In this document: positions 3,132 to 37,441 of the stretch, piece after piece
Layout of the letters: every line of letters begins with the position of its first letter
Position numbering within the stretch: the stretch's first letter is position 1
IMG/VR virus record: IMGVR_UViG_3300017752_000054
Coordinates: 1 to 37,441 of that record
Origin: a virus
Direction: 5' to 3' (one strand)
Length of the DNA stretch: 37,441 nucleotides
The notes under the pieces: model-generated
Database searches by the model: none
What the model was told of the DNA's origin: nothing
Seen by the model: only the letters and a program-made list of their open reading frames with translations
Translations under genes and position numbers: made by a program

Positions 3132-3218
3132 TGGTGCCTGGAGCCGGAGTCGAACCGGCACGAGATTTCTCTCGACAGATTTTAAGTCTGTTGCGTCTAC
3201 CAATTTCCCCACCCAGGC
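3132..3218 (-). tRNA. tRNA-Leu (anticodon UAA), complete with encoded CCA
   Basis: Read on the minus strand, a full class II tRNA folds. The acceptor stem GCCTGGG pairs with TCCAGGC (last pair G-U). The D arm carries TGGTAGAC, and the anticodon arm ACAGA/TCTGT holds loop CTTAAAA with anticodon UAA. The variable arm is CGAGA/TCTCG, and the T arm GCCGG-TTCGACT-CCGGC is followed by discriminator A and genomic CCA (TGG at 3132-3134 on the + strand). It is intact, so it may function, and it lies between the lysis genes and the integrase. Leucine tRNA genes are common integration targets for such phages, so it may be, or overlap, attP. Confidence 0.95.
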
Positions 3219-3508
3219 ATGTCTTTTAACATTGTGTCTCTCTAAATAGAGTTGACGTGGTTTGTGTCGCGCAGTATAGTCAGCAGGCGAAGTGAGGGAT
3301 ACCGCAATTTTTGCATCCAGATCCCTTTCGGCGAAGCAAGGTGTGTGAATAACAGTGCTTCACAAGATAACTGCTGCGGAAGCTCTCGAAGAGGGAATCA
3401 CTACCCCTCCCCAAGCAATTTGAGGGCAATAGCATATCTTACTGAAAGCGTAGTTATTTCCGCAGTGAAACAAGGGAAACTTTGAGGGAAAACTAACGGA
3501 GAGAAGCT
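3219..3508. other. Intergenic region upstream of integrase; candidate attP arm/regulatory region
   Basis: No convincing gene is seen in these 290 bases. The octamer TTTGAGGG occurs at 3419-3426 and 3481-3488. An 8-bp inverted repeat CTGCGGAA/TTCCGCAG lies at 3374-3381 and 3458-3465. Position between a tRNA and a tyrosine integrase is where arm-type integrase or excisionase sites are expected. A 22-codon GTG frame at 3355-3423 (reading HKITAAEALEEG) could be an excisionase remnant, but it stops early and is not supported further. Confidence 0.4.
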
Positions 3509-4387
3509 ATGAAACTACGAGATTACATCAGCGACAACGTACACTTAATTTGGCCTATTGGGAACCACCGCAAGAGATCCATCCAGAAGCTCCAAGAGTT
3601 CATGTCTTTTAATGGCAACGGCTCCCGTGATCTGTCTGACTTCAGCGCACGAGACATCAAAGAGTACACAAATTGGCTGCGCGAAGAGGCTATTAACTTG
3701 CGCTCAAACAAGCGTGGCTTGAGTAAATCGACAATAAACAAAAGATTAGCGGCGGTCAGCAAAGTATTCAATACCGCAGTTGATGATAAACTGATAAGCG
3801 CCAACGGAAAGCCCAGAATAAAAGCGGAGAACGTACCGACCGAGCGCGGTCGGCACTTCACTCAACGCGAGATTGCACTACTGAAGCGTTATTACGCCGA
3901 CTCAGATTATCCAGAGATGGTTGACTTTTTAGAGCTCTGCATGAACACGGGAATGCGTAATTCCGAGATGCTGTCGATAAATAAAGATGAAGCAAGTGCC
4001 GATGACAAAGTCGCTGGAAAAATCATTGAGAACGGAACGGCTGTGCGGTTAGAAAACACGAAAAATGGCCGAGGGCGCACAGTGCCTCTAAATCAAAAAG
4101 CATCAAGAGCGTTAAAAAATTTAGGGTATCGCCCATTTGATCACTACAACCATCGCCACTTTTACACGAGTTGGCAAAATGCTAGACGAAAAGTTGCGCC
4201 TGGTGATACGTCCTTTGTTTTTTATTGTGCTCGGCATAGTTTTGCTTCGTATTTAGCAAACGAAAAGAATATTTCAATCAAGATTATTGCCGACCTGATG
4301 GGACATACAGATATCTCGACAACAGCTCGATATATTCACACTAAACCATCGCAGGCGTTCGCGATTGTGAATGCACTGGAGTTATAG
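3509..4387 (+). CDS. int: Tyrosine-family site-specific integrase
   Basis: The 292-residue recombinase would insert the phage into and excise it from the host chromosome. The N-terminal ~110 residues are a helical SAM-like core-binding domain (LSKSTINKRLAAVSKVFN). The catalytic domain shows Arg150 in NTGMRNSE, Lys185 in the beta-hairpin NTKNGRGRTVPL, Arg242-His243 in CARHSFAS, His266 in LMGHTDISTT and the nucleophile Tyr275 in ARYIH. The usual His of the HxxR box is Tyr239 here, a substitution tolerated in some family members. GGAGAG precedes the ATG. The tRNA-Leu upstream on the other strand is the likely target, and a strong terminator follows. Length is normal for compact phage integrases. 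Confidence 0.95.
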   Translation: MKLRDYISDNVHLIWPIGNHRKRSIQKLQEFMSFNGNGSRDLSDFSARDIKEYTNWLREEAINLRSNKRGLSKSTINKRLAAVSKVFNTAVDDKLISANGKPRIKAENVPTERGRHFTQREIALLKRYYADSDYPEMVDFLELCMNTGMRNSEMLSINKDEASADDKVAGKIIENGTAVRLENTKNGRGRTVPLNQKASRALKNLGYRPFDHYNHRHFYTSWQNARRKVAPGDTSFVFYCARHSFASYLANEKNISIKIIADLMGHTDISTTARYIHTKPSQAFAIVNALEL

Positions 4388-4398
4388 TTTTAGATAAC

Positions 4399-4434
4399 GC
4401 GGCCTTTCAAAAAACACCGAACGGCCGCTTTTTT
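4399..4434 (+). terminator. Rho-independent terminator after integrase
   Basis: GCGGCC (4399-4404) pairs with GGCCGC (4423-4428) across an 18-base loop and is followed by six T. It closes the integrase transcript before the repressor gene. Confidence 0.75.
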
Positions 4435-4508
4435 AATAATTCCTAATAATTGTATACATTAATACATAAATAAATAGAATTCATTGTAATGCAGACAGGA
4501 GATCAAAA
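4435..4508 (+). promoter_or_regulatory. AT-rich leader of repressor gene with inverted repeat
   Basis: This very AT-rich stretch contains TGTAT (4451-4455) and ATACA (4462-4466), a perfect 5-bp inverted repeat with a 6-base spacer that could bind a dimeric regulator. TTGTAT at 4450 and AT-rich hexamers about 17 bases later could make a host-type promoter. The ribosome binding site AGGAGA lies just before the repressor ATG. All roles are inferred. Confidence 0.4.
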
Positions 4509-5222
4509 ATGCAACTTGCCGGACTTACTTCCCCCCCAAAAAAACACCGATGCCAAAAACAAATTGCGGCGGCTTTGCTTGTCGCGTACAAAAAACGGTG
4601 TAGCGTGATGAAGCCTCGAAATTTAAAAATCACTCAAGAAATAGTTGCTCGAAAACTTGGCGTGAGTCAAAGTTTGATATCGCAATATTTCGCAGGCGAC
4701 TTGCCAATTCCTGATGCCAAGCTCCAAATTTTTTGTGACTTTTTGAGAATCCGTCCAGTTGACATTGATCCTAATTTTCAAAGCACGCCAGAAAAACACA
4801 AAAGCAAATTTTTTGTATTGGACACAGGGAATTGCGGACAAGAGTTTTTAAATTCTGAAGCATATTACGAAGAGTCACTTGGTCATTTGATTGGAATAAA
4901 AACCAAATACACGGCTGACATCCGATTGTTGGAAGACGGAAAAATTGTTTACGAGCACGGCGGTGTACTCCAAGCATTTCTGCACTTGACGTTTGTCGAT
5001 GCGCTTTCAAAAGAAGAGCTGAAAAAAGTCAATCTCGTAGCAGTTTCGAGATGGAAGGACTATAAAAAACAAATCCCAGGCCAGTTTTTGTTCATGCGCA
5101 AAAACACCTATTTAGCTAAATTAGCTAAACAAAAACAAATGGAGAAAGAACAAATTGTCGATTTCAACGAGCGCAGGCAGTGGGGGCCGTGCATGGCGGT
5201 TTTGCAGATTATCTTGAAGTAA
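4509..5222 (+). CDS. HTH (Cro/CI-type) DNA-binding repressor
   Basis: The 237-residue product carries a helix-turn-helix of the XRE/Cro-CI type at about residues 41-65 (ITQEIVARKLGVSQSLISQY), the recognition helix being SQSLISQYFAG. The remaining ~150 residues match no family I recognise. The Ser-Lys motifs of a LexA/CI S24 autopeptidase are not visible, so it may not be cleaved through RecA. It stands alone with its own AT-rich leader between integrase and RNA polymerase, the place for the lysogeny repressor. AGGAGATCAAAA precedes the ATG. The likely job is to silence the polymerase gene next door. An activator or Cro-like role is possible. Confidence 0.8.
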   Translation: MQLAGLTSPPKKHRCQKQIAAALLVAYKKRCSVMKPRNLKITQEIVARKLGVSQSLISQYFAGDLPIPDAKLQIFCDFLRIRPVDIDPNFQSTPEKHKSKFFVLDTGNCGQEFLNSEAYYEESLGHLIGIKTKYTADIRLLEDGKIVYEHGGVLQAFLHLTFVDALSKEELKKVNLVAVSRWKDYKKQIPGQFLFMRKNTYLAKLAKQKQMEKEQIVDFNERRQWGPCMAVLQIILK

Positions 5223-5384
5223 TTTTTACCAACCGTCACTTTTTTCACATTAAAAATGTTTGTGTCCCCCCATTGAGGGAAGCAGTGATTTTTTTTGAAA
5301 CACACGTTATCCACTAACGAATAGCTGTACTAATGATAGAGGGATTCAGTATTCCCGAATTATCAAAAAAATAGGAGAAAACAA
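5223..5384 (+). promoter_or_regulatory. Leader of the phage RNA polymerase gene
   Basis: These 162 bases separate repressor and polymerase and must hold the host-dependent promoter that starts lytic growth. TTGAAA at about 5296 is a possible -35 box, but the -10 box is unclear. The quasi-palindrome GGGATTCAGTATTCCC at 5341-5356 shares 13 bases with a hairpin at 16097-16117. AGGAG precedes the GTG start. Confidence 0.5.
5340..5356. promoter_or_regulatory. Candidate operator upstream of RNA polymerase
   Basis: The sequence AGGGATTCAGTAT (5340-5352) followed by TCCC forms an imperfect palindrome. The same 13 bases occur on the opposite strand in the perfect hairpin at 16097-16117. A repressor site is inferred; an RNA structure is the alternative. 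Confidence 0.4.
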
Positions 5385-7874
5385 GTGAGAAGTGTTCAAG
5401 ACATCAGCGAACGGGAGTCAAAAACTTTGGGACTCCAACGACACGCTAAAAAACAAGAAAAACAATCTCCGCAGTATCGGCAAGCCGAGCTCATTGTAAT
5501 ATCTGAAGTTCAACAAGACGTTGCAGACTTCATACGCGCCGAAATCGAGAGTCAAGAGCGCGCATCGTCTGGTCGGCGCATGAAGTGGTATGACGACCTA
5601 AAGGGCTTAAACTGTGACGTTCTCGCGTTACGAGCGCTACAGTGCGCCGTGAGTGGTGCAATCAATAATAAGCCGTGGGTAGCAGTTATGGCTAGCATGG
5701 GCGAGCACATCTATCAAGAATTTCTCGGACAGCAATTTGATGGAGCTGAAGATATTGACCATGCGGTGCAAAAGAAAAAGCTGTTCGAGAAAAAAACGCT
5801 GTACAGCAGAATAAGATTCGTTCAAGGGCTTTTAATTGAGCACACGAAGTGGAAGACCGAGAGAAAAGTCACAGCGGCAACGCCATTGATCAACGCGGTT
5901 CTCGCAAGTAAAGTTTTTGAGCGTTTCGAGCGGACAGTGAAAGTTAATGGTAAATTGAAAACGGAAGTAAGAGTTGTTTTCAGTGCGCTTGGCACAGCAA
6001 GTTTAGAGGCGCATAACGAGCGCATAGAGTGGGCAGCAGCAGTGTTTTTACCAATAGCTGGCAAGGATGCGGGAGGTAATCCACTGAAGCCAGTGCCGTG
6101 GACATCGACAAAGTCAGGTGTATATCACGACCGCAAATTGTCGGCATTAGTACCACTGATTCGGAACGGTGCCGAAGCTCAAAACACGGCAATTGACGCA
6201 TTGTGTGCAAAACGCTTACCGAAATTTATGGAAGCGTTGAATGTACTTCAGAATGTACCATTCGCGATTAATGAATATGTATTGAGTGCTGTAAAATACG
6301 CTTGGGCTAATAACATTGTTTTAAGTAAATTTCCCTCGCAAACGCGCCTGGATTTACCGCAGCCTGTAAAACAATGGGGCGACATGAGTCGTGATGAGCG
6401 AGAGCTTTTTAAGCAAGATCGCCAGGCAGTAAAAGAGCGCAATTTACAAATTACAAATGACGTGTGGCAGATGCGCCAAGACACCGACATCGCGGATCTG
6501 CTGGTAGAAAAACAAGAATTTAGACTCGGCGCGAATTGCGATAAGCGAGGACGTGCTTACTTCGTCTCACCCTTTAATTATCAGAGGGGTGATTATCAAA
6601 AAGCTCTTTTTTTGTTGAAAAATAAACAGCCAGTAAAAGACAGTTTAAAGTGGCTTCTCATTCACGCTGCGAATACTGGCGACTTTGATAAAGTTTCAAA
6701 GCGTGAACTCGTAGAGCGGCAAATTTGGGCCACAATGAATTTGGATTGGATAACGGCGTGCGGAAAAGACTTTGAGGCGAACACACAATGGCACCAGGCC
6801 GATAAGCCGTTTCAATTTTTGGCGGCGTGTAGAGAGCTGTATTTATACACCCAAGATCCTGATAATTACGAGAGCGGCCTCCCCGTCGCAATTGACGCAA
6901 CGAACAGTGGGGCGCAGCATTACAGCGCGATTACGCGGAGTCAAAAAGATGGTGCGCTCTGCAATCTTGTACCACAGGATAAAATCGCGGATCTATATGA
7001 GGTGGTCGCGGATAAAGTCACTAATAGCATTAGCGTAGATCATTGCGAAAAATATCAAACTCAGCGTCAACAGTGGTTGGCTTTTGGAATTGGTAGAGGC
7101 GATGTGAAGCGCAACGTAATGACGTATTTTTACTCGTCGAAAGCTTGGGGCATGGCACAACAGCTTGTCACTGACACAATGCAGCCGTTGGAGCGTAAAA
7201 GGCTAGCCAACCGAGAGTTTGAGCATCCATTTGGACGCACCGAGTGGCAGCAAAAAAGTGCCGCAATGTACGCCGCTAAACACATTTTTAGCGCTGTCGA
7301 AAACACTGTAAGTTCGGCGGCAGAGACTATGTCATATTTGCGTAGCTGCGCTGGTCTGCTTGCGGCTGAAAATAAGCCACTGATATGGAAAACGCCAAGT
7401 GAATTTGTGGCGCATCAATATTACAGTCATAAAGTTGGCAAAAAGTTAAAACTGTGGTTTTTTGAAAATGAATTAAGACTCCCTACGCATAAACGTCGCA
7501 GTGTAGCGGTTGCGGAGGATACGAGTAAATGCGATATACATCGAATGAAAAATGCTTGTGGTGCGAATGTTATTCACAGCTTGGACTCTGCGCACCTTTT
7601 GTTGACAGTGCTTGCGTGCCAAGAGAAAGGCATCAATGATTTTTTTGTGATCCACGATTCATTTGGGAGCACTTCTGCTGACATGGAGAAAATGTACGCG
7701 ACTGTGCGTGAGACTTTTATTGCTATGTACGCAGAATATTGTATTTTTGAAGTCGTCGATAAAAGCACACGCGCTGTTTTGTCTCTATCGAATCTTGAAA
7801 AAATGGAGAAAATTCCGACTAAAGGCGACCTCGATTTGAAAGCGATTACAAAGAGTGAGTGGTGCTTTAGTTAA
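5385..7874 (+). CDS. T7-type single-subunit DNA-directed RNA polymerase
   Basis: The 829-residue enzyme (T7 has 883) would transcribe the phage's own middle and late genes. Motif A is VAIDATNSGAQHYSAITR with Asp504 (T7 Asp537). Motif B is DVKRNVMTYFYSS with Lys575 and Tyr583 (T7 Lys631, Tyr639). Motif C is FVIHDSFGS with Asp758 (T7 Asp812), preceded by VIHSLDSAHL. The region around 686-715 (KLKLWFFENELRLPTHKRR) corresponds to the promoter-specificity loop. The C-terminal 'foot' ends WCFS where T7 ends FAFA. The GTG start is chosen for AGGAG nine bases upstream. It follows the repressor directly and ends in two terminators, so it is a self-contained early unit. All catalytic residues are present. 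Confidence 0.97.
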   Translation: MRSVQDISERESKTLGLQRHAKKQEKQSPQYRQAELIVISEVQQDVADFIRAEIESQERASSGRRMKWYDDLKGLNCDVLALRALQCAVSGAINNKPWVAVMASMGEHIYQEFLGQQFDGAEDIDHAVQKKKLFEKKTLYSRIRFVQGLLIEHTKWKTERKVTAATPLINAVLASKVFERFERTVKVNGKLKTEVRVVFSALGTASLEAHNERIEWAAAVFLPIAGKDAGGNPLKPVPWTSTKSGVYHDRKLSALVPLIRNGAEAQNTAIDALCAKRLPKFMEALNVLQNVPFAINEYVLSAVKYAWANNIVLSKFPSQTRLDLPQPVKQWGDMSRDERELFKQDRQAVKERNLQITNDVWQMRQDTDIADLLVEKQEFRLGANCDKRGRAYFVSPFNYQRGDYQKALFLLKNKQPVKDSLKWLLIHAANTGDFDKVSKRELVERQIWATMNLDWITACGKDFEANTQWHQADKPFQFLAACRELYLYTQDPDNYESGLPVAIDATNSGAQHYSAITRSQKDGALCNLVPQDKIADLYEVVADKVTNSISVDHCEKYQTQRQQWLAFGIGRGDVKRNVMTYFYSSKAWGMAQQLVTDTMQPLERKRLANREFEHPFGRTEWQQKSAAMYAAKHIFSAVENTVSSAAETMSYLRSCAGLLAAENKPLIWKTPSEFVAHQYYSHKVGKKLKLWFFENELRLPTHKRRSVAVAEDTSKCDIHRMKNACGANVIHSLDSAHLLLTVLACQEKGINDFFVIHDSFGSTSADMEKMYATVRETFIAMYAEYCIFEVVDKSTRAVLSLSNLEKMEKIPTKGDLDLKAITKSEWCFS

Positions 7875-7894: not shown

Positions 7895-7916
7895 GCCGCC
7901 TTCGGGCGGCTTTTTT
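7895..7916 (+). terminator. Strong terminator after RNA polymerase
   Basis: GCCGCC-TTCG-GGCGGC followed by six T is a textbook intrinsic terminator with an ultrastable UUCG tetraloop. An identical copy lies at 8181-8202. Confidence 0.92.
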
Positions 7917-7918
7917 AT

Positions 7919-7940
7919 GCCCCTTCCCCAGGGGCTTTTT
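7919..7940 (+). terminator. Second, tandem terminator after RNA polymerase
   Basis: GCCCC (7919-7923) and GGGGC (7931-7935) form a 5-bp stem with a 7-base loop followed by a T run. It stands three bases after the first terminator's T tract. Confidence 0.75.
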
Positions 7941-8180: not shown

Positions 8181-8202
8181 GCCGCCTTCGGGCGGCTTTT
8201 TT
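8181..8202 (+). terminator. Terminator, duplicate of 7895-7916
   Basis: The same GCCGCC-TTCG-GGCGGC stem-loop with six T, and the following ATGCCC, are repeated exactly from the copy after RNA polymerase, which suggests duplication of the unit or insertion of the small gene between copies. Confidence 0.9.
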
Positions 8203-8238
8203 ATGCCCGTTTCAAAACCACAAAAGGAGCACCACCGC

Positions 8239-14027: not shown

Positions 14028-15671
14028 ATGGAGACGCATGATACTCACGAAAAGGGAATCTTTATCAGACATGTCCCTTGTAAGCAATGTGGTAGTAGTG
14101 ATGCTTGCGCAGAATATACTGATCATATCTTTTGTTTTGCTTGTAACCATTACCACGATTTACTAGTTGACGAGCACTCTGTCAAAACGGGTGTAAACTC
14201 AAATGAGATCAACATTAAAACAAAAAATACCGCATTTGTCACAAACGGTGAGTGTAAAGCGCTATCAGTACGCGGCATTCATCAAGAGACTTGCCAACGC
14301 TTCCAATACTTGACTGCGAAAAACAGAAGCGGCACGACAGTGCAAGTCGAGCAGTACCGAGATAAAAAAGGTAATTTGGTAGCCCAGAAAACCAGAGACA
14401 AAAACAAGCAGTTTAAAATAATCGGCAATAGTCAAAAAATGCCTCTCTTTGCGCAGTACCGTTACAGCGGCGAAGGCGATCGTCTAGTGATCACCGAGGG
14501 CGCTATGGACGCAATGAGCGTATCACAAGCATTTGGTCATAAGCACATCGTCGTTGTTAGCGTCCCCAACGGCGCACAGTCGGCTAAAAAATCCATTCTC
14601 GATAATCTCGACTTTGTTCTCGGCTATAGCGAAATATGCCTGTTTTTTGACGGCGACACGCCAGGCAAAGAAGCAACCAAAAGCTGTATCGAAGTGCTCC
14701 CTCTCGGCAGGGTATCTGTGGCATCCATGCAAGATTACAAAGACGCGAATGAAGCCCTAGCCGACAAAAACCCAAGAGCAATTATCGATGCAATAATGAA
14801 TGCAACGAAAGCGCGCCCAGACGGCATTGTATTAGCCGAGGATCTACGAGATATCATTGTAGTACGTGACGACATGTCAGCCATTAGATACCCTTACACG
14901 CGCTTAAATGAGCTCACAATGGGTATCCAGCCGAGCACAATGATAACGCTCTGTGCCGGCTCTGGCGTCGGCAAATCGACCTTAATCAGAGAGCTAGCGT
15001 ATACGCTGCACCAAGCCAACCAGGTGCTCGGTATGATCATGCTCGAAGAGACAAATAAACGCACTCTACAAGGATTAGTAGGCATTCACCTCAGTAAGAA
15101 CATTATTAACTTCCAGCACGTAGCAACGGATGAGCAAATCGTGCAAGCACATAGCGATCTTTTTACTGATCGCCCTCTCTTTTTGTACGACCACATGGGT
15201 ACTCGGAACATCAAAGTGATCAAAAACCACATTCACTGGATGGTAGCCCACGGAGCCAAGGTAATCATTCTGGATCATATAAGTATGCTCATCGGCGAAG
15301 CTACGAGCAAAGTACAAGATGAGCGCCGGCTCATCGACACTCTTATGACAGACTTCAGATCACTAGTGCAAGAACTAGGAATCACCCTATTTCTCATTTC
15401 GCATCTCAAAAGACCAACCCACGGCGCACACGAAGACGGCACAGCGAAAATCGATGCTAGCCAACTGCGAGGCTCTGGTGCCATCGTGCAGCTCAGTGAT
15501 ATCTGCATTGGACTCAGCGTCGATCCCGACGATGTCTCGACGCTCAGACAGATAGTTGTCCTCAAAAACAGACACACCGGGCAAGTTGGGTACGCCGACA
15601 AGCTCTGCTATGACCGACATAGTGGGCGACTAAAAGAGGTAACCGAAGAGTTCGTCGATGTGCCATTTTAA
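14028..15671 (+). CDS. Primase-helicase (T7 gp4-like)
   Basis: The 547-residue fusion lays down primers and unwinds the fork. The N-terminal zinc ribbon has Cys18, Cys21, Cys36 and Cys39 (CKQCGSSDAC... CFAC). The TOPRIM primase core shows ITEGAMDAM with Glu157 and FFDGDTPG with Asp208/Asp210. The RecA-like helicase shows Walker A AGSGVGKST (310-318), MLEE with Glu340, Walker B VIILDHIS with Asp416, LISHLKRP with His459 and LRGSGAIVQLSD (480-491), all as in T7 gp4. The C-terminus is acidic and ends in Phe (VTEEFVDVPF), the tail that in T7 binds polymerase. AAGG precedes the start. It closes the replication operon. Confidence 0.96.
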   Translation: METHDTHEKGIFIRHVPCKQCGSSDACAEYTDHIFCFACNHYHDLLVDEHSVKTGVNSNEINIKTKNTAFVTNGECKALSVRGIHQETCQRFQYLTAKNRSGTTVQVEQYRDKKGNLVAQKTRDKNKQFKIIGNSQKMPLFAQYRYSGEGDRLVITEGAMDAMSVSQAFGHKHIVVVSVPNGAQSAKKSILDNLDFVLGYSEICLFFDGDTPGKEATKSCIEVLPLGRVSVASMQDYKDANEALADKNPRAIIDAIMNATKARPDGIVLAEDLRDIIVVRDDMSAIRYPYTRLNELTMGIQPSTMITLCAGSGVGKSTLIRELAYTLHQANQVLGMIMLEETNKRTLQGLVGIHLSKNIINFQHVATDEQIVQAHSDLFTDRPLFLYDHMGTRNIKVIKNHIHWMVAHGAKVIILDHISMLIGEATSKVQDERRLIDTLMTDFRSLVQELGITLFLISHLKRPTHGAHEDGTAKIDASQLRGSGAIVQLSDICIGLSVDPDDVSTLRQIVVLKNRHTGQVGYADKLCYDRHSGRLKEVTEEFVDVPF

Positions 15672-15847
15672 GTAAATAATGCGTACTGAAAACTCCCAAA
15701 AACCCACCAAAAACACCCTAAAAACACCCTAAAATGACCTTTGATTCACTTTTTGTAAGCTATTGTTTTATCGAGGGTTTTTCTTTGTGTCTTACTATTA
15801 GAGAAGACGCTAGGTGTACTCTAAGAGATGACGAAGAGAAGAAAAGA

Positions 15848-15955
15848 AATAATAGAGAGACTATAGATTCACTATAAGAGAGACTATAGATAACTATAAG
15901 AGAGACTATAGTTACTAAAGAGTCTCTGTAGGAGTCGCTGTAAGAGAGACTAAAA
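15848..15955 (+). repeat. 22-bp repeat array resembling T7-type promoters
   Basis: The core ACTATAAGAGAGACTATAG occurs exactly at 15871-15889 and 15893-15911. Degenerate units are at 15848-15866, about 15914-15930 and 15937-15955, keeping a 22-23 bp register (15893 to 15937 is 44). The stretch TTCACTATAAGAGAGA resembles the T7 core CTCACTATAGGGAGA. The array points toward the structural genes. Promoters for the phage polymerase, or origin iterons, are inferred. Confidence 0.75.
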
Positions 15956-16096
15956 TTTATATTCTATTTATGTCGGCACATTATAGTGTCGGCAACAGTA
16001 CAACTAAAGTAACACCTAATGTAACGTAAGTCCCTATTTTTAAAGAAACTTATTTGGGTAGTCCGATATGTTTTTCTTGAGACAGGCAGTGCTCAC

Positions 16097-16117
16097 CAAG
16101 GGATACTGAATCCCTTG
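16097..16117. promoter_or_regulatory. Perfect hairpin/palindrome sharing a motif with the RNA polymerase leader
   Basis: CAAGGGAT-ACTGA-ATCCCTTG is an 8-bp perfect inverted repeat with no T tract after it. Its reverse complement contains AGGGATTCAGTAT, identical to 5340-5352. A protein-binding operator or RNA-processing hairpin is more likely than a terminator. Confidence 0.5.
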
Positions 16118-16281: not shown

Positions 16282-16436
16282 AAACCACAGTTACCAATGA
16301 CCTCACCCAAGCGTACACCCTTAATTTCCTACCGGCTCTCGAAGTAATCTGTGAGCGCCGAACTTTCGGTTACCGCATTCGTGCTCTCCGCGTCAGCTTC
16401 ATGTCCCACTCCATCTGGTTTGAAAGTGATCGCTAG
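16278..16436 (+). CDS. Small protein of unknown function
   Basis: The GTG at 16278 is preferred because GAGGAG lies seven bases upstream; the same frame has an earlier ATG at 16218 with no such site. The 52-residue product begins MKTTVTNDLTQAYTLNFL and is mildly hydrophobic without a clear membrane helix. It overlaps its neighbours by four and one base, so it belongs to a coupled cluster of tiny genes at the start of the late operon. Confidence 0.55.
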   Translation: MKTTVTNDLTQAYTLNFLPALEVICERRTFGYRIRALRVSFMSHSIWFESDR

Positions 16437-16690
16437 TGGCTACTCCAAGGCGTGGCAAAGCGAAGGCTAAGGTTACGGCATCTGGACGCAAAGTAAGTTA
16501 CGGTCAAGCTGGCCGTTCATCTGATGGTGGTCCTCGCGTGCGCCCTGGTACATCGAAGGGTGATGCGTATTGCGCTCGATCTTTTGGACAAATGAAAAGC
16601 CACCCGCAAGCTGCTGCTGATCCCAATTCGCCATTGAGACTTTCTCGGAAGCGCTGGAAGTGTTCTGGCCGTAAGTCATCTCGAAGTTAA
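16436..16690 (+). CDS. Small basic protein, DUF6321-like
   Basis: The 84-residue product starts at a GTG sharing one base with the previous stop codon. It is rich in Lys, Arg and Ser. SYGQAGRSSDGGPRVRPGTS, then GDAYCARSFGQMK and SPLRLSRKRWKCSGRKS recall a conserved protein of cyanophages and other marine phages, to my memory DUF6321. Two cysteines could bind metal. The role is unknown; position at the head of the structural block suggests a virion or assembly protein, or a DNA-binding one. Confidence 0.75.
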   Translation: MATPRRGKAKAKVTASGRKVSYGQAGRSSDGGPRVRPGTSKGDAYCARSFGQMKSHPQAAADPNSPLRLSRKRWKCSGRKSSRS

Positions 16691-16726
16691 CTGATTGCTC
16701 ATCCTCATCATCAAAAGGACAACACC

Positions 16727-16915
16727 ATGCCTGCTAAGAAAAGTAAGCCAGGTTTATACGCCAACATTGCCGCAAAGAAAAAACGAATAGCATCTGGATC
16801 TGGTGAGCGTATGCGCTCGAAAGGTAGTAAGGGAGCACCAACTGATGCTGCCTTTGTTGCTGCTGCGAAGACTGCCAAAACCCCAATGCGCAAGAAACTG
16901 TCGAAAAAGAGCTAA
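16727..16915 (+). CDS. Small lysine-rich protein
   Basis: The 62-residue product begins MPAKKSKPGLYANIAAKKKR and ends KKLSKKS, with about one third basic residues. It has AAAAGGA upstream of the ATG. Similar short basic proteins (LYANI-AKKKRI-SGSGE pattern) occur in many marine phages; the function is unknown, perhaps nucleic-acid binding. A 20-base piece of its 3' end is repeated 33 bases downstream, past the stop. Confidence 0.72.
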   Translation: MPAKKSKPGLYANIAAKKKRIASGSGERMRSKGSKGAPTDAAFVAAAKTAKTPMRKKLSKKS

Positions 16916-35130: not shown

Positions 35131-37441
35131 ATGGCTACTGGCTTTTATAGTGGATCTGGCGTTACTACAACAAACACTACTGCGATCGAGTCTGCAAAAA
35201 CACAGGCAGAAAATAGTGCAACCGCTGCTGCTACGAGTGCAACCGCTGCTGCCACGAGTGCAACCGCTGCTGCCGCTACGGCTGCGGCAATGGCAACGGT
35301 TTTAGACGAAGATAATTTTGCAAGCGACAGTGCGTCTGCGGTTCCAACTCAGCAGTCAACGAAGGCGTACATTGCTAGTCAAGCAACGACCGCTACTCAA
35401 GCACGCGCTTTGGTAGAAAGTGCTACAGATTCCAATGTATTTACCGATGCTGACCACACAAAGCTGAATGCGATAGAAGCATCGGCTACTGCGGATCAAA
35501 CTGCAGCCGAAATCAGGACGCTCGTAGAAAGTGCTACAGATTCCAATGTGTTTACCGATTCTGACCACACAAAGCTGAATGCGATAGAGGCATCGGCTAC
35601 TGCGGATCAAACTGCAGCCGAAATCAGGACGCTCGTAGAAAGTGCTACAGATTCCAATGTATTTACCGATTCTGACCACACAAAGCTGAATGCGATAGAG
35701 GCATTGGCTACTGCTGATCAAACTGCAGCCGAAATCAGGACGCTCGTAGAAAGTGCTACAGATTCCAATGTATTTACCGATGCTGACCACACAAAGCTGA
35801 ATGCGATAGAGGCATCTGCTAATGCATATACTTTGCCGTCTGCAACTGAAACAACATTGGGCGGCGTGGAGCTTTTCAGTGACACTGTTCAAGCCGTTGC
35901 TGCAAATTCGGTCACTGTTGGATCTTCAAGAACTTATGGTATTCAACTGAATGCGGATGGGCAAGCGGTAGTGAATATACCGTGGACGGATACTGTTGGC
36001 GTTCCGACAGTGAAAGCCAATCAAGATGGCACGACGACAACACCGACGAGTAATGCCATTCAATTAATCGCTGGAAATAACATAACGATATCTGAAGTTG
36101 GATTGCCAGGTAATTACAATTTCTCAGCGACGGGTTTGTTACCAACAGCAGGCGGTACAATGACGGGAGATTTGCTGTTTGGCGATAATAAGTCAATAAA
36201 ATTAGGAACTGACAACGATTTAATCATTAAGCACGATGGCAGTAATTCTATAATCGAAGACGCGGGAACCGGGAATCTAAAATTAGTCGTACAGGATTTG
36301 CAAGTCGTCGATCAATCAAGTAACGCTCTTTTCTCGACTGCAAGTGGTGCTGAAACGATATTTTATGCGTCTGGATCAGACGAAGCGTTTAAAATTTTTG
36401 GCGACTCTGACGGGGCTGTGAGAGCGAAGACCAATATAAGAATTCACGACTTACAAGGTAGATTCCAAACGGGCCGTGCCGCTGTTGCAGATGCAGGTTC
36501 AGGTGCAGAATACTGTTTTGAAATGTATGCATCGTCAAATACCGCCGCCGCTGATGATGACCACGGAAACATCAAAGTGAAAGGGGGTGGAAATTTAAAT
36601 GTGATCACGGACGCTGCTGTCGTGATTAACGCTACTACGATAGATATCAATGGCAATGCAGACATATCGGGCACTATAGCAGCAGGGGGTGTTGTAACGG
36701 CAAACGCAGGTGTGGTAGTAGATAACATCACGATTGATGGTAATGAGATTGATGTAAGTTCTGGCAACCTAACCCTAGACGTTGCAGGAGACATTATCCT
36801 CGATGCTGATGGTGGTAATTTAAAATTCGCAGACAATGGCACAGTAAAATTAGATATTTATGAATATAATTCAAATTTATATTTTGACAATCCAGTATCT
36901 AATTCTGGCGTTATATTCCAAGGTACAGACGGAAGCGCGTCCATATCGGCCCTCACACTTGATATGTCAAACGCAGGAGCCGCTACTTTCACAGGAGCAG
37001 TAACAGCCAACGCAGGTGTAGTGGTAGATAACATCACAATTGATGGTAATGAGATTGATGTAAGTTCTGGGAACCTAACCCTAGACGTTGCAGGAGACAT
37101 TATCCTCGATGCAGATGGTGCTGATATTATCTTTGCTGACGGAGGAACCCAATTTGGGTTTATAGGAAACTCTAGCAGTGACTTGGTAATGAAGTCACAA
37201 GTTCAAGACAAAAACATTCTATTCAAAGGCAACGATGGCGGCAATACAGTCACAGCCCTTTCACTTGATATGTCAGCGGCGGGCGAAGCTACATTCAATG
37301 ATGATATAAATTTAGGCGATAGCAAACGCTTGCGAATGGGTGCAGGTGGAGATTTTGAAATTTTTCATGATGGCTCAAATAATTACATTAAAGGTGCTAG
37401 TAGCGACCAAGATATAATTTTTCAAGGCGTAGATGGCGGCA
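35131..37441 (+). CDS. Tail fibre protein, N-terminal and central part (continues at base 1)
   Basis: The gene opens with GAGGGA before ATG 35131 and stays open to the window's end, joining in frame with the S74-ending part at 1-1268. The N-terminus (MATGFYSGSGVTTTNTTAIE) is followed by Ala/Ser/Thr-rich 7-residue repeats (SATAAAT, three times from 35215). Four 37-residue repeats (VESATDSNVFTDADHTKLNA with ATADQTAAEIRTL) follow, a well-known phage fibre module. Later parts have TAGGTMTGDLLFGDNKSIKL and two near-identical 40-residue segments. This makes up most of the shaft. It lacks a recognisable T7 gp17 N-terminal domain, which fits a non-T7 tail attachment. Confidence 0.92.
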   Translation, partial: MATGFYSGSGVTTTNTTAIESAKTQAENSATAAATSATAAATSATAAAATAAAMATVLDEDNFASDSASAVPTQQSTKAYIASQATTATQARALVESATDSNVFTDADHTKLNAIEASATADQTAAEIRTLVESATDSNVFTDSDHTKLNAIEASATADQTAAEIRTLVESATDSNVFTDSDHTKLNAIEALATADQTAAEIRTLVESATDSNVFTDADHTKLNAIEASANAYTLPSATETTLGGVELFSDTVQAVAANSVTVGSSRTYGIQLNADGQAVVNIPWTDTVGVPTVKANQDGTTTTPTSNAIQLIAGNNITISEVGLPGNYNFSATGLLPTAGGTMTGDLLFGDNKSIKLGTDNDLIIKHDGSNSIIEDAGTGNLKLVVQDLQVVDQSSNALFSTASGAETIFYASGSDEAFKIFGDSDGAVRAKTNIRIHDLQGRFQTGRAAVADAGSGAEYCFEMYASSNTAAADDDHGNIKVKGGGNLNVITDAAVVINATTIDINGNADISGTIAAGGVVTANAGVVVDNITIDGNEIDVSSGNLTLDVAGDIILDADGGNLKFADNGTVKLDIYEYNSNLYFDNPVSNSGVIFQGTDGSASISALTLDMSNAGAATFTGAVTANAGVVVDNITIDGNEIDVSSGNLTLDVAGDIILDADGADIIFADGGTQFGFIGNSSSDLVMKSQVQDKNILFKGNDGGNTVTALSLDMSAAGEATFNDDINLGDSKRLRMGAGGDFEIFHDGSNNYIKGASSDQDIIFQGVDGG
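35413..35856 (+). repeat. 111-bp tandem repeat, four units, in tail fibre
   Basis: Units start at 35413, 35524, 35635 and 35746 (exact 111-base period) and are nearly identical, the last truncated. They encode the FTDADHTKLNAIEA-type module of the fibre shaft and could let shaft length change by recombination. Confidence 0.92.
36694..37120 (+). repeat. 121-bp direct repeat, two copies 306 bp apart, in tail fibre
   Basis: 36694-36814 and 37000-37120 match except for a few substitutions, in frame (306 bases is 102 codons). They encode DNITIDGNEIDVSSGNLTLD and AGDIILDADG. Related ALTLDM cassettes follow at about 36950, 37255 and 140. Confidence 0.88.
37319..37441. repeat. Right copy of 123-bp terminal overlap
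   Basis: Identical to 1-123; see the left copy. Removing one copy gives a unit of 37,318 bases. Confidence 0.9.

Follow-up and report, generated by a model that had tools for sequence, protein, structure and literature searches.

How prophages remain silent in phages that carry their own T7-like polymerase is an open question, for which the study of Pseudomonas phage LUZ100 offers a proposed MarR model only (PMC10134795). The LUZ100 module comprises a MarR-like regulator, an integrase and an RNA polymerase (RNAP) with the phage promoter phi1, and the MarR-like protein, encoded upstream of the integrase, was proposed to repress the phage promoter before RNAP; that work left stable lysogens of LUZ100 unconfirmed (PMC10134795). 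As summarised in the same work, the MarR model names sites at the RNAP promoter and no late-region site (PMC10134795).

The window analysed here, the whole stretch of 37,441 nt of IMGVR_UViG_3300017752_000054, looks like a complete phage genome because bases 1-123 recur exactly at 37319-37441. Intergenic DNA makes up 4.6% of it. The features that bear on the comparison with LUZ100 are as follows.

3132-3218, minus strand: tRNA-Leu, upstream of the integrase gene; the single Rfam match in the window.
3509..4387, plus strand: tyrosine integrase (Pfam Phage_integrase, E 1.1e-18; phrog_1).
4399..4434, plus strand: terminator-like hairpin, GCGGCC...GGCCGCTTTTTT, between the integrase and HTH genes (fold z -4.1).
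4509..5222, plus strand: XRE-type HTH protein (HTH_3; Pfam HTH_3, E 4.7e-6), candidate repressor.
5260..5290, plus strand: TTGTGTCCCCCCATTGAGGGAAGCAGTGATT, a conserved block of the RNAP leader and possible phage promoter or attenuator.
5385..7874, plus strand: T7-like single-subunit RNAP (Pfam RNA_pol, E 3.4e-80).
14028-15671: T7-type primase-helicase.

As in LUZ100, a tRNA-Leu gene on the minus strand is followed by a tyrosine integrase and then by RNAP on the plus strand, which is the gene order of temperate T7-like phages, and a repressor of the RNAP leader during lysogeny can again be proposed. Unlike LUZ100, with its MarR-like regulator upstream of the integrase, the window has an XRE-type HTH gene between integrase and RNAP; directly upstream of the integrase no regulator ORF could be annotated, this place being taken by the tRNA and by an intergenic stretch of 290 nt. 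The phage promoters of LUZ100 (ATTACCACACAG...) also differ from the elements found in the window. The module may therefore work like that of LUZ100 yet not be of the MarR type. The HTH protein matches phrog_8 and phrog_4 (transcriptional regulator/repressor); no relatives of it were detected in viral or genome contigs, the phages gave one weak match, and a single-sequence AlphaFold model reached a mean pLDDT of 33, too low for use. The RNAP shares about 30% identity with Autographiviridae RNAPs. The portal is of the SU10 type (Pfam SU10_portal, E 5.9e-183) and not the Autographiviridae portal expected among T7-like structural genes, and its best phage matches are larger podoviruses. A 28-base terminator-like sequence, GCCGCCTTCGGGCGGCTTTTTTATGCCC, is present twice, at 7895-7922 after RNAP and at 8181-8208 after the next small gene.

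Three sites in the window share a 17-bp dyad layout with a TCA(G/C)TA centre. All of them are intergenic: one stands before the integrase, one before the RNA polymerase and one before the late operon.

5340..5356, plus strand: site 1, AGGGATTCAGTATTCCC, in the RNAP leader; matches the late palindrome at 15/17 positions.
16097..16117, no strand assigned: site 2, perfect palindrome CAAGGGAT-ACTGA-ATCCCTTG, in the late leader; 8-bp stem and 5-base loop.
3392..3408, plus strand: site 3, AGGGAATCACTACCCCT, in the integrase leader; 14/17, in the same orientation as site 1.

The initial annotation had reported that the 13-mer AGGGATTCAGTAT at 5340-5352 (plus strand), followed by TCCC at 5353-5356, is shared with the other strand of the perfect hairpin at 16097-16117, one copy lying before the polymerase gene and the other before the late operon. 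Sequence and placement were both confirmed: the 13-mer is exact at 5340-5352 (plus) and 16103-16115 (minus), and elsewhere in the genome it has no copy with 0 or 1 mismatch and one with 2. Site 2 matches site 1 when read on the minus strand. Between site 1 and the AGGAG (5373-5377) that precedes RNAP lie 16 nt. Site 3, absent from that annotation, lies in a segment whose orientation is reversed in the sister genome described below. When the genome was scanned with the 17-base palindrome AGGGATTCAGTATCCCT at a threshold of at least 13/17, exactly the places 16099 (17), 5340 (15) and 3392 (14) were recovered, and a scan for the arms only (AGGGA-N7-TCCCT, at most one mismatch) returned two places in the genome, 3392 and 16099, both intergenic. 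No sigma-70-like promoter overlapping site 1 or 2 was found, a point against their reading as operators. Two further candidates were set aside: a half-site-like AGGGATACCG at 3295 was dropped, the sister reading AGGGAACCTG there, and a role of site 2 as an intrinsic terminator was ruled out, its stem having no T run after it.

A single shared 13-base pair is unremarkable by itself, since the window holds 71 maximal exact repeat pairs of at least 13 bases. A 13-mer common to these two leaders arises in 0.5% of Markov shuffles, and one common to any two intergenic stretches in 11%; likewise, perfect 8-bp hairpins are no more frequent than chance predicts (3 in the window against 2-8 in shuffles). 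Matches of at least 14/17 to AGGGATTCAGTATCCCT are expected 0.05 times in the shuffled whole genome and 0.002 times in its shuffled intergenic part, and a permuted-palindrome control gave a probability of 0.016 for at least one match and 0/3000 for at least three, in statistics that are optimistic in being computed once the first two sites were known, the third site having played no part in the choice of query. It is the pattern of three sites, not the 13-mer or the hairpin alone, that exceeds chance.

The operators of lambda-type CI and Cro are imperfect dyads of about 17 bp, grouped at one divergent promoter. The window resembles such sets in its imperfect dyads of about 17 bp and in offering an HTH_3-type protein as candidate binder. 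It differs from them in that its sites are dispersed over 12.7 kb, with a single site per region, and in that none lies at the regulator's own promoter; from the MarR model of LUZ100 it differs in having a site in the late region.

IMG/VR was searched for relatives with the RNAP, helicase and integrase proteins, and one distinct relative was found, the sister IMGVR_UViG_3300029448_000159 (L001/L034/L035), besides one 99.9% identical fragment. The sister, which likewise looks complete because its contig ends overlap, shares about 89% nucleotide identity and the same gene order with the window, and its RNAP is 92% identical. The HTH gene is absent from the whole sister genome. Site 1 is absent as well (L001), where the RNAP leader is shorter, and the counterpart of site 3 is degenerate, which leaves no good site in the integrase leader. 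Between its integrase and RNAP the sister carries a terminator-like hairpin, different from that of the window but in the equivalent place, then the block TTGTGTCCCCCCATTGAGGGAAGCAGTGATT, identical in both genomes, and a short leader without site 1. Site 2, in contrast, is kept as CGCCAAGGGAT-ACCGA-ATCCCTTGGCG, with a stem of 11 bp against 8 in the window. Across 39 nt around the late palindrome the two genomes differ by 8 substitutions, all of them outside the 16 arm positions (hypergeometric P 0.008), so the late palindrome looks constrained. Thus, in this one genome pair, sites 1 and 3 co-occur with the HTH gene and site 2 does not, and the late site, kept in a genome lacking that gene, does not depend on the HTH protein alone. 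A sister pair with and without the HTH gene constitutes a natural comparison.

Two structural differences between the sisters were also recorded. A segment of about 100 bp between tRNA-Leu and integrase (window 3348-3458; L035 17728-17850) is inverted in the sister, with an alignment score of 144.5 inverted against 66 forward and at most 64.5 in shuffles, and it is flanked by inverted repeats around TGCTTCAYAAGATA. This looks like site-specific inversion, perhaps inside attP, beside a tyrosine integrase. Close to where the late operon starts, about 300 bases (16459-16756) are missing in the sister, and a small ORF (84 aa, 16436-16690) is found there in the window.

These observations can be read as the traces of a repressor and its operators. 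The best explanation, quite conceivable if short of probable, is that the sites at 3392-3408, 5340-5356 and 16099-16115, with a half-site of about AGGGATTC, serve a phage repressor as operators. A phage-encoded repressor dimer, most likely the XRE-type HTH protein of 4509-5222, would bind the three dyads, and in the lysogen it would sit in the leaders of the integrase, RNA polymerase and late genes; the location of the sites in three leaders, all intergenic, fits a small regulon of this composition. Site 1 lies between the HTH and RNAP genes, which run in the same direction, and this placement suggests that the dimer would also keep transcription of the HTH gene from running on into RNAP; repressor synthesis would then not launch the lytic programme. 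The late site might be an older palindrome that was adopted by the HTH protein, or one retained after loss of the HTH gene. We infer binding, repression, a dimer operator and the adoption or retention of the late site alike from the arrangement of these sequences. The scheme in its full form is a doubtful one, namely that in a temperate phage with a T7-like polymerase one XRE-type repressor and three dispersed single operators would control integrase, polymerase and late genes, one operator lying in an invertible segment beside the integrase and one blocking read-through from repressor to polymerase.

The initial annotation had already assigned the two sites it knew to the HTH protein at 4509. 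That assignment gains from the third site before the integrase and from the sister, which lacks the HTH gene together with site 1 and a good site 3; it loses from the late palindrome, which persists with a longer stem in that same sister, and from the region upstream of the HTH gene itself (4388-4508), which holds no such site (best match 9/17, null mean 9.2). Repressors of the XRE/CI-like kind commonly, though not universally, autoregulate. An inverted repeat, TGTATACATTAATACA, at 4451-4466 overlaps a sigma-70-like promoter before the HTH gene, and it could be an alternative, possibly real operator of the HTH protein. As for the further claim that no such switch had been described, it holds for the phage of the window as far as could be found, but repression at the RNAP leader was already proposed in temperate T7-like phages (PMC10134795). 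With few named sites and one candidate repressor, the question of prophage silence becomes directly testable in a different regulator family.

RNase III cuts T7 mRNAs at hairpins in their leaders. The main rival to operators is an RNA hairpin plus coincidence: site 2 would be a clade-conserved stem-loop of the late mRNA 5' leader, serving processing or stability (e.g. as an RNase III target), and site 1 an unrelated small hairpin before the ribosome-binding site of RNAP. We consider this rather unlikely. The late leader of the sister does fold strongly without any HTH gene in the genome (11-bp stem, -20.8 kcal/mol, z -4.6), site 1 is able to form a hairpin too (-9.5 kcal/mol), and the sharing of an intergenic 13-mer in roughly one shuffle in nine, as given above, leaves room for coincidence. 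Nevertheless, the late hairpin of the window is barely more stable than shuffles (z -1.07), and no compensatory pair changes accompany the longer stem of the sister, which arises from one-sided changes; this explanation also leaves the third site at 3392 and the lack of copies in coding DNA unaccounted for.

That the sites are bound by a protein other than the HTH protein, such as a host regulator, an integrase-associated factor or another phage protein, appears more doubtful still. It would suit the persistence of site 2 without the HTH gene and the location of site 3 between tRNA-Leu and integrase, where the integrase and its helpers may bind, yet on this reading the sister, in which the other regulatory blocks are conserved, ought to have retained sites 1 and 3, and it has retained neither. 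Pairing between the two RNAs is very improbable. Here the plus-strand leaders would form complementary hairpins (loops UCAGU and ACUGA), through which late mRNA would lower RNAP synthesis late in infection. The predicted duplex is strong (-32.2 kcal/mol, where shuffles average -12.7 and 0/300 of them are as strong), and the opposite orientation of the two copies that pairing requires is observed; however, such complementarity follows automatically from a palindrome shared in opposite orientation, the paired region stops 16 nt upstream of the ribosome-binding site, and the late hairpin of the sister would have no partner.

Beyond the sister pair, a widespread operator was rejected on exact scans of IMG/VR. 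The scan for GGGATTCAGTATNCCC returned 25 contigs, which by estimate is not above chance for a collection of that size, and the scan for CAAGGGATN5ATCCCTTG returned 11 contigs, with only L028 and the sister as relatives among them. Nor was such a palindrome seen before RNAP in the relatives collected by RNAP profile (identity of about 34% or below across most of the protein). In the closest of these, L039 (34% RNAP identity), the integrase adjoins RNAP with no gene between them, so the lineage of the window may have acquired the HTH gene; loss in the sister is the alternative history.

Besides the dyads, the control regions contain a second shared element. Among the 7-mers that both genomes conserve, TTGTGTC alone is present in all three control regions, with copies at 3232, 3262, 5260 and 15785, and it is a candidate phage RNAP promoter element, better conserved than the 13-mer. 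Its presence in all three regions links the RNAP leader and the late region at a level that was missing from the initial annotation. The copies at 3232 and 15785 extend as TCTCTAAATAGAG and TTACTATTAGAG, and in this extended form they bear a resemblance, and no more than that, to T7-family promoters. The copy at 15785 belongs to a longer element.

15785..15958, plus strand: TTGTGTC element, then 22-bp repeats in tandem (about ACTATAAGAGAGACTATAGATA, at 15848-15958), upstream of the late palindrome.

The tandem repeats are present in fewer copies in the sister, and the array as a whole is a possible late promoter, set of tandem promoters or replication origin. Further into the late leader, a direct repeat, TGTCGGCA-CATTATAG-TGTCGGCA, occupies 15971-15994 and is identical in the sister.
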